A DNA stretch of 64,000 nucleotides, taken from Lyngbya sp. HA4199-MV5. Its GTDB lineage: Bacteria > Cyanobacteriota > Cyanobacteriia > Leptolyngbyales > Leptolyngbyaceae. This document shows, one piece after another, positions 12,250 through 36,766 of this stretch. Below the pieces are notes generated by a model. The model did not search any database and was not told where the DNA came from. It saw only the letters and a program-made list of their open reading frames with translations. The position numbers and the translations under genes are program-made. The stretch spans positions 123,748-187,747 of the forward strand of contig JAHHHL010000006.1 in assembly GCA_019359375.1 (NCBI GenBank), written 5' to 3'. How positions within the stretch are numbered: position 1 is the first letter of the stretch; every line of letters begins with the position of its first letter.

Positions 12250-12975
12250 TTACTGACCCAAGGCTCTCAAAAAGCGCTGCATCTCTTCAATCACATTTCG
12301 CTTCGGTGAGGCTTGCGTACCGCCAGCCTGAAGCAAAAGTTGTTCTAGCCGTTCGGTGCCTGGTTTTGTCAATTCTTCGACAACTAAAGCATAGGTATTG
12401 TCTGTCTCACGCCACACTTGCCAGGGTGCAGGATAGCAACGCAGCAACGCCGTTCGATCGAAGGGGCGCAGATAGTAACACGGCTCAAACGTGCTGAGAA
12501 ACCGCTCACGAATTTTGCGTGCCGCGTAGCCAATGCCAACCGTGCCAATATCCTCTAAGCGTGGGGCAAACAAAACAACGGGACGATCGCCCGCAGCAGT
12601 ACAGACCTGTTCCACAGGTGAAACCTCGACCGAAGAGGGTGCAACAAACAGAAATAGTTGGTCATCGGGACTCACCAATTCGTCAACGGGGGTTGTCTGT
12701 CGCGCTCCTGCTACATCTAAGCTGCAAATGTTGAAGGGAGTTTCGCCCCAATCTCGTCTTGCCAGCGCCGCCGCTCCAGCATCGGTAAAAAAGACTTTGA
12801 GTCCAGCACCCATGTGGCTAAAAACTGGGAGATACTGAAATGCGATCGGGGTCGGCTTTAGCTCTGGTAACAGTAGATCGATTTGCAGACGAGTGTAGCC
12901 CGCGGCGATCGCCGCTTGGGTGGCGCTTTGTGCCTGCGCGATCGCTGCGTCTAACGTTTGAGGAAATTCAACCAT
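12250..12975 (-). CDS. DUF1995 family protein
   Basis: MVEFPQTLDAAIAQAQSATQAAIAAGYTRLQIDLLLPELK; likely start at 12975 (ORF extends to 12993). Confidence 0.82.
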   Translation of the reverse strand: MVEFPQTLDAAIAQAQSATQAAIAAGYTRLQIDLLLPELKPTPIAFQYLPVFSHMGAGLKVFFTDAGAAALARRDWGETPFNICSLDVAGARQTTPVDELVSPDDQLFLFVAPSSVEVSPVEQVCTAAGDRPVVLFAPRLEDIGTVGIGYAARKIRERFLSTFEPCYYLRPFDRTALLRCYPAPWQVWRETDNTYALVVEELTKPGTERLEQLLLQAGGTQASPKRNVIEEMQRFLRALGQ

Positions 12976-13198
12976 GATTGCGAGTAAAGCCAAAAATTAA
13001 AGAACCGAAGAGGAAGAACGTAACCTTAATGCAGTTTTTCATGGCATACAAAGCATCTTCGCTGAAAATGCGGCTGGTGGGAACCATTAGTTTTAACCAA
13101 AATCTCCGAGGTTTGCGTCAGTCCTCATTGAAAATGGGTCACGCCTTGAAGACCTGACCCCGCTTGCATGAGTATGTTTGGCTCGCGTCAGTCGCCCA

Positions 13199-13810
13199 CT
13201 AATCCTTACTGAGGATTGCATTCGGCTCTAAACACCAAACAGCGTAACCCTGAACTGCCCTGGTAATTAAAGCGCCAACATCTTTGCGCTGCAATCTGGC
13301 AGCCAGCGTTAATGCCTGCTGTTGGGTGGTCGCTACTTTAAGCAGACTGTAATATTTACCATCAAACAGCACAGCGGCTAGGCGCTGATCAGAATCCGGC
13401 AGGCTGATGTGGCACGCTTTGTAATCGCTGCGAGATTCAAGAATCTTGCAGGCAGGGACATCAGTAATTTGGGAGAATGCTTGGGATGGTGTTGGCGACG
13501 GTAACCGGGGGCAGGCATCAACATAGGCTTCAGGCTCTAACCGCCAAATCGCGTATCCTTTAGCCAGTCTGGTAATGACGGCTGCTTTGCCCACCGATGT
13601 CAACCGTTTGGCGATTTCGAGCGATCGCGCCCGGTCTTGCACCACTTTGACAAGACTGTAATACTTATCATTTACCACAACCGCTGCCACTCGATAATCT
13701 TCCCCTGGCAGGCAAATATGACAGGAATGGTATTGGTCACGAGATTCGAGTATTTTAGGAGTCAGATCCAGAGGATCTACGGAGAATGGAGAGTGCGTCG
13801 GAGTTAGCAT
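13199..13810 (-). CDS. Hypothetical protein with two copies of a ~79-aa domain
   Basis: KILESRDQYHSCHICLPGEDYRVAAVVV... and KILESRSDYKACHISLPDSDQRLAAVLF... align along their length. Confidence 0.85.
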   Translation of the reverse strand: MLTPTHSPFSVDPLDLTPKILESRDQYHSCHICLPGEDYRVAAVVVNDKYYSLVKVVQDRARSLEIAKRLTSVGKAAVITRLAKGYAIWRLEPEAYVDACPRLPSPTPSQAFSQITDVPACKILESRSDYKACHISLPDSDQRLAAVLFDGKYYSLLKVATTQQQALTLAARLQRKDVGALITRAVQGYAVWCLEPNAILSKD

Positions 13811-14010
13811 GAACTGACCTCAAATAGATGCTCCAGAAGAGTCACTTTTTGAGATGCTCTTTTTAAGAACCTCAAAATAACTTCACCAGGATGGTTCTAT
13901 TTTCGCCGCCTCAATCTTCAACTGAAACCGTGATAACGCGCATTTTCAGCCTTTTCGCGTAGAACTTTCCTGCTCGAAGCCAGTCAGCCTTATGCTCAAT
14001 ACTTAAATCC

Positions 14011-14391
14011 ATGTCTCATCCCTGCCATATCGTCGTAGCGGGCAATCCTGCCATTATTTATGCCAGCCGTAACGGTACGCCCGATCGTATACTGCCAATT
14101 CTCAAGCGCTTTTTGGATAAGTTTTGGCAAGAGCGTGATTTAGTGGGAGAAAACAGCGATACGCCTGAGTGCTTGGTAGCCCAAATTATCGTGCGCTTTG
14201 GCTTTGAAATTTGTGAGGATGACTTCTCAAATTTGCGCGTTGGCGTGCGGTATGACCCAAACGTTGAGTATTTTTACTGGATAACGTCTGAACGGGATAT
14301 CAGTGTATGGGTACCCGAAGAGGCTTATCGCCAGGAGCCAATGCTTGGGTTGAAGGGGTGTAAGCGGTGGAAGAGAGAAGGGAAGGGGTGA
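14011..14391 (+). CDS. Conserved hypothetical protein
   Basis: 126-aa ORF with coding character; C-terminus runs into a repeat element. Confidence 0.7.
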   Translation: MSHPCHIVVAGNPAIIYASRNGTPDRILPILKRFLDKFWQERDLVGENSDTPECLVAQIIVRFGFEICEDDFSNLRVGVRYDPNVEYFYWITSERDISVWVPEEAYRQEPMLGLKGCKRWKREGKG

Positions 14392-23818: not shown

Positions 23819-23949
23819 CTAGGGGCTGTCATCAATTACGGCTATACATACCTTGCAGAAAGGGTTCCAGCCCCTAGCTTTGTGTGTTGGGATGGGCGCG
23901 ACAATGCTGACACCGCAAGGTTTCGAGCTGAATTGATGCCGCGCCCTAG
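23819..23949 (+). mobile_element. 131-bp CTAG-bounded MITE-like element, copy A
   Basis: CTAGGGGCTGTCATCAATTA ... CGCGCCCTAG; aligns at the same length with copies B and C. Confidence 0.8.
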
Positions 23950-35440: not shown

Positions 35441-35571
35441 CTAGGGGCTGTCATCAATTAATACTACACATTGCTTGCAGCAAGGATTCCAGCCCCTAGC
35501 CTCGTGTGTTGGGACGGGCGTGACACTGCTGATATTGCAAGGTTTCGGAGCTAATTGATGACACGCCCTAG
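35441..35571 (+). mobile_element. 131-bp CTAG-bounded MITE-like element, copy B
   Basis: CTAGGGGCTGTCATCAATTA ... TAATTGATGACACGCCCTAG; 18/20 TIR match. Confidence 0.85.
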
Positions 35572-36635: not shown

Positions 36636-36766
36636 CTAGAGCGTGTTATCAATTAGCTCTGAAACCTTGCAGTATCAGCAGTGTCACGCCCGTTTCAACA
36701 CGTCAGGCTAAGGGCTGGAACCCGTGGTACAAGTAATGTGTAGTCGTAATTGATGACAGCCCCTAG
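36636..36766 (-). mobile_element. 131-bp CTAG-bounded MITE-like element, copy C (inverted relative to A and B)
   Basis: CTAGAGCGTGTTATCAATTAGCTC ... TAATTGATGACAGCCCCTAG. Confidence 0.8.

Follow-up and report, generated by a model that had tools for sequence, protein, structure and literature searches.

MITEs are usually regarded as short-lived deletion products of a local IS. Besides such MITEs, two kinds of described element come close to the one analysed here: members of the IS427 group of the IS5 family are ~830-865 bp long and have two overlapping ORFs and a 2-bp duplication (PMC3281130), and REPINs consist of two inverted conserved end units around a variable middle, occur extragenically in high copy and are moved by RAYT, an HUH transposase (PMC3116915). 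The repeated element in our window (the whole 64-kb stretch of DNA that was analysed) is an IS5-type MITE, and in this respect it is of a known kind. We consider it probable that this MITE is a 125-bp deletion-type derivative of an IS5-family (IS427-like) IS and that a pair of inner arms forms part of its competent ends.

Three copies lie in the window. A first-pass annotation of this DNA had placed all of them correctly, each at 131 bp and with copy C inverted, and its description of their repeats also holds. The outer repeats of copy B match at 18/20 positions; hairpin 1 of this copy is formed by CTAGGGGCTG and CAGCCCCTAG, and hairpin 2 by GGGCGTG and CACGCCC. Hairpin 2 of copy A is GGGCGCG/CGCGCCC, a T-A to C-G change relative to copy B, and the single stem differences of copy C, read in the orientation of A and B, are of the G.U type (C to T at element columns 56 and 127). 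The features are given below, those within the element for copy B.

23819-23949, plus strand: MITE copy A, 131 bp, with the C-G variant of the right hairpin.
35441-35571, plus strand: MITE copy B, 131 bp including the flanking CTA...TAG.
36636-36766, minus strand: MITE copy C, 131 bp, inverted.
35442-35443, no strand: left TA of the target duplication; the base before it is C in 95% of copies.
35444-35568, plus strand: element proper, 125 bp between the two TA dinucleotides, as judged from the flanks, the empty sites and the YTA/TAR flanks of IS relatives.
35444-35460, plus strand: left terminal inverted repeat (TIR), GGGGCTGTCATCAATTA; the outer arm of hairpin 1 is 35444-35450.
35490-35499, plus strand: inner arm 1 (CAGCCCC) plus TAG, which repeats the left tip together with its flanking CTA in inverted form and lies 47-53 nt in from the left end.
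35500-35515, plus strand: variable spacer between the two end units, 68% conserved.
35516-35522, plus strand: inner arm 2 (GGGCGTG), the right tip inverted, 47-53 nt from the right end.
35552-35568, plus strand: right TIR (GGGCGTGTCATCAATTA read inward), identical to the TIR of the IS5-family IS; the outer arm of hairpin 2 is 35562-35568.
35569-35570, no strand: right TA of the target duplication; the next base is G (72%) or A (28%).

The annotation had taken CTAG as the boundary of the element, which we correct here. Because the right end is CTAG or CTAA and the left end nearly always CTAG, we define the element as the 125 bp between two TAs. The length between the flanking tetramers is mostly 131 bp (range ~128-133), and the 17-bp TIRs are identical between the two ends at 15/17 positions. 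Copies in the host genome are flanked by CTA on the left and by TAG or TAA on the right, and the fourth base on the left is the element's own G; the duplication is therefore TA. At the locus in the window's genome that is orthologous to a Stenomitos-type copy, the empty site is a single CTAG, and the relatives' loci orthologous to two of the host's own copies are empty as well, both reading CTAA (L276 and L279). For copy A, a paralogous but diverged site shows CTAG once, a weak case, and other empty sites are diverged (CTTA, CCAA). Two longer duplications were also considered and ruled out: a CTAG-bounded 4-bp duplication, because copies with CTAA on the right still begin with CTAG, and a 3-bp CTA duplication, because TTA precedes and TAG follows the ISs and a few of the MITEs.

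Full-size relatives of 811-856 bp carry the TIR GGGCGTGTCATCAATTA at both ends, between YTA and TAR flanks. Each has two overlapping ORFs (frameshifted) with matches to the IS5 family transposase model NF033580, at 134 bits in each ORF against a cut-off of 110, and to DUF4096 and DDE_Tnp_1 (PF13340 and PF01609). Since their size, split ORFs and 2-bp duplication, here TA, agree with the table in PMC3281130, and their DDE transposase is of the IS5_3/DUF4096 type, these relatives fit the IS427 group. Such same-TIR ISs are present in G009, G011, G012, G037, G056, Leptolyngbya sp. SIOISBB and other genomes. The one in SIOISBB (L257:1070-1921) has the same asymmetric ends as the MITE, GGGGCTG-type on the left and GGGCGTG on the right, and the left TIR of copy B equals its 5′ end except at 2 bases. 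The annotation's proposal of a non-autonomous IS5-type element is thus borne out by same-TIR transposases in related cyanobacteria and by empty sites that are single CTAR tetramers. The MITE itself is short, non-coding and multicopy, with TIRs, a target duplication shown by empty sites and an autonomous same-TIR relative elsewhere. Searches of the host genome at 1e-15 to 1e-40 gave no match to a close transposase, and none of the host's IS5-type proteins, all of them distant, is flanked by matching TIRs. Judging from these sequences, the MITE would be mobilised in trans by a transposase recognising the 17-bp TIRs, and its movement may have stopped or slowed once the autonomous partner was lost.

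Further genomic copies, which the annotation had suggested seeking, are abundant: ~310-350 in the 6.9-Mb host genome. A first look returned 340-346 candidates; among 40 of 340 that were scored, nearly all are full-length matches with 96-100% identity to copy B. Genome-wide matches to the terminal repeat number 622, against 3 for a reversed control pattern (both at ≤3 mismatches), a count far above what chance would give. Between sampled own-genome copies, pairwise identity has a median of 0.85 and reaches at most 0.985, which gives no sign of a very recent burst. Relatives of the MITE occur in ~20 other cyanobacterial genomes, and our alignment comprises 227 distinct near-full-length copies from 21 groups (genomes). 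By locus sequence identity, the host's GTDB genus includes Tildeniella nuda (G002) and the Oscillatoriales MAG Centralia_MAG_596 (G004); within this genus the MITE is present in G002, G006 and G004, and no match was found in G001, G003 or G005. An exact search with the 20-base terminal repeat named Kaiparowitsia, Nodosilinea, Leptolyngbya and others, and a search of plasmids and phages gave no match.

Several neighbouring or similar sequences were seen along the way. In the planctomycete Candidatus Uabimicrobium amorphum, a ~235-bp element (L108:3816-4054) has CTAG at both ends and the same asymmetric TIRs, GGGGCTG on the left and GGGCGTG on the right, around an interior unrelated to the MITE. 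No close transposase was found in that genome, and horizontal transfer is possible. At three places (G000:C48:8040-8242, G000:C84:116398-116651 and G002:C36:122313-122518), a full copy has the right half of the MITE (positions 54-131) behind it, directly or almost directly attached at CCCTAG; it looks as though the internal CTAG had served as an alternative end or a recombination point. The host genome also contains a dispersed repeat of ~220 bp (GGCGGGTGAGCAACGAAGC...; L191 around 12839-14219, L136, L188, L204 and L211), one copy of which holds an inserted MITE. The right flank of the MITE copy at 16539 of L209 contains an unrelated palindromic repeat of ~100 bp (AGACTTAC...CTCGGAGGTTT; query 2210-2310) with dozens of matches in most genomes of the genus.

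Each end of the MITE forms a 53-nt unit that contains a second, inverted copy of its 7-nt tip, giving inner arms at 47-53 nt that are complementary to the tips at 7/7 positions. Over the 21 groups, conservation is 98% and 90% in the outer arms, 97% and 86% in the inner arms and 94% in the internal TAG; it is 54% and 62% in the loops and 68% in the spacer. The remainder at inner arm 2 is mostly the covarying T81/A123 pair. This pair is C-G in 111 copies and T-A in 100, that is, complementary in 211/227, and on the loop tree it has undergone at least nine double changes, of which four fall on internal branches. The compensatory stem change first noticed in copy A is thus real and recurrent in the family, and the G055 left tip GGGCCTG, with inner CAGGCCC, is a further case. 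At the other 16 pairs, compensated double variants are only modestly above expectation (10, against a shuffle mean of 3.6 and maximum of 12). The IS of SIOISBB has inner arms as well, 6/7 complementary at 48 and 47 nt (7/7 at 47 and 47 in the MITE). Seven other ISs that we checked lack them at those positions, and similarity between the MITE loops and the SIOISBB IS beyond TIR and arms is not significant. Because the same geometry recurs in one autonomous relative, we infer that the inner arms contribute to making an end competent for transposition. They could provide a second transposase contact, or let the end extrude as a hairpin when the DNA is single-stranded or supercoiled.

Arm complementarity might instead be kept only by mutational correction, through template switching within the hairpin of imperfect palindromes, and have no function. 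Such correction could also yield the double changes at 81/123, and double changes do occur on terminal branches too, including pairs with the target-derived flank (1/59 and 2/58). It offers no reason, however, for the arms keeping their sequence in 21 genomes while the loops diverge, as it homogenises and does not conserve, and many terminal single-sided changes remain uncorrected. We regard this explanation as unlikely.

The distribution of changes indicates where the constraint on the arms acts. Private variants per site, summed over four genomes, are ~0.51 in arms and ~0.54 in loops, a comparison in which singletons are undercounted in the variable loops; for shared divergence, the arms lie below the loops by a factor of two to four. 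By parsimony on a loop-only tree, the arms without pair 81/123 show 192 terminal and 3 internal changes and the loops ~741 terminal and 383 internal (~12.8 and 6.6 per site), although a tree built from loop columns favours putting loop changes on internal branches. The tree-free comparison of private variants agrees with the tree, more weakly. Few descendants seem to come from copies whose arms are damaged, a pattern expected if the arms matter for transposition and not for the host after insertion. The arm constraint thus looks like one on mobility, acting on lineages that transposed rather than on single copies.

The first-pass annotation had proposed a transposable element that might also be a selected structured RNA or DNA element; its transposable part, a non-autonomous IS5-type element, is supported, and a selected structured RNA that serves the host is not. 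Under such a reading, transposition would have dispersed a regulatory element or structured RNA under host selection, such as a terminator, a signal for RNA processing or a small RNA, and the conserved complementary arms with their compensatory change fit this. It also fits the placement of the copies: all 72 in 847 kb lie between predicted genes, at a median of 31 bp from gene 3′ ends, where gene calls are simple ORF choices and distances rough. We attribute this 3′-end proximity to the purging of promoter insertions and to overextended ORF starts. The neighbour arrangement, however, does not depart from that of the intergenic background, and no orientation bias is seen between tandem genes, where 17 copies point the same way as the genes and 20 the opposite way. 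Private mutations being as common in arms as in loops argues against host selection as well, and stem departures of the G.U type (82) and the A.C type (63) are not clearly different. For the three window copies, the minimum RNA fold is a long TIR stem and not two hairpins; a two-hairpin fold was obtained for the G055 copy and, with DNA parameters, hairpin 1 formed in copy C. No Rfam match above the gathering score was found in the window. A host RNA function is not supported by these data, and we judge it improbable.

Still less credible, and largely refuted, is a REPIN-like element, an inverted hairpin pair with a tetranucleotide tag moved by an HUH (Y1/RAYT) transposase: its two hairpin ends and variable interior do resemble REPINs (PMC3116915) and the host has 11 Y1_Tnp matches, but the TIRs exactly match a DDE IS5 element, the 7-bp stems enclose 39-nt loops where REPINs have tight GTAG- or CGTC-tagged palindromes, the tetramer is CTAR and not GTAG, and RAYT association is lacking, with the MITE near 2/11 Y1 loci, one of them through a Y1 element landing inside a MITE. 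At L341:1332-2104 (G000 contig C2), a Y1 (IS200-like) element lies inside a MITE and splits it into model positions 1-41 and 31-131.

Insertion of the element has a preferred direction. Summed across the genomes, CTA...TAA is found 58 times and TTA...TAG 7 times, although these are one and the same site seen from opposite strands. C occupies the left flank base in 215/227 copies and G the right flank base in 163/227; no MITE-like bias was seen in ten IS copies from one genome, where the transposase-oriented left base is C in five and T in five. The left flank C pairs with the G of the conserved internal TAG in hairpin 1, and hairpin 2 has no such extension into the flank, the right flank being freer. 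The left end unit extends 3 bp into the target-derived CTA, which goes with an oriented choice of CTAR sites. Among non-CTA left flanks, 2/19 match the complementary internal triplet (shuffle p ~0.04), which is too little to support guide pairing. In nine copies the right flank is TGG or TGA and the left CTA, more than single one-sided mutations would give. A tentative idea, to which we assign a rather low probability, is that the internal TAG, placed by the left end hairpin, pairs with the target-derived CTA and so sets target choice and insertion direction. Guide-like target pairing is otherwise known from single-strand (IS200/IS605) transposition.

We found no description of this element, or of directional CTAR insertion, in the literature searched, which covers Nezha and small dispersed repeats thinly, and none there of a tip repeated in each end across many genera and shared with one autonomous IS. 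The tips, inner arms and spacing have persisted over many cyanobacterial genera, mostly outliving the transposase, and the 227 aligned copies are a ready dataset on what transposon ends need beyond the TIR. Should the inner arms and the CTA/TAG complementarity on the left prove to affect mobility or insertion direction, IS5-type elements would have end structures outside the family features that were checked.

Compared with bacterial MITEs in general, including Nezha in cyanobacteria (review PMC10969869, with Nezha taken from citations), this MITE is alike in size, TIRs, intergenic location, fold potential and copies in excess of the parent IS. It differs in that one architecture is kept across ~20 genera and in that its paired inner arms covary with the tips. 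REPINs share with it two inverted conserved ends, a variable middle, high copy number and extragenic location, whereas the ends of the MITE are those of a DDE IS. With IS427 ISs it has in common the 17-bp TIR, the TA duplication in YTAR-type targets and, in its autonomous relatives, a DUF4096 and DDE transposase split by a frameshift. The MITE itself encodes nothing; its left tip is GGGGCTG in place of GGGCGTG, and it adds inverted copies of both tips and a preference for C on the left that the ten IS copies do not share.
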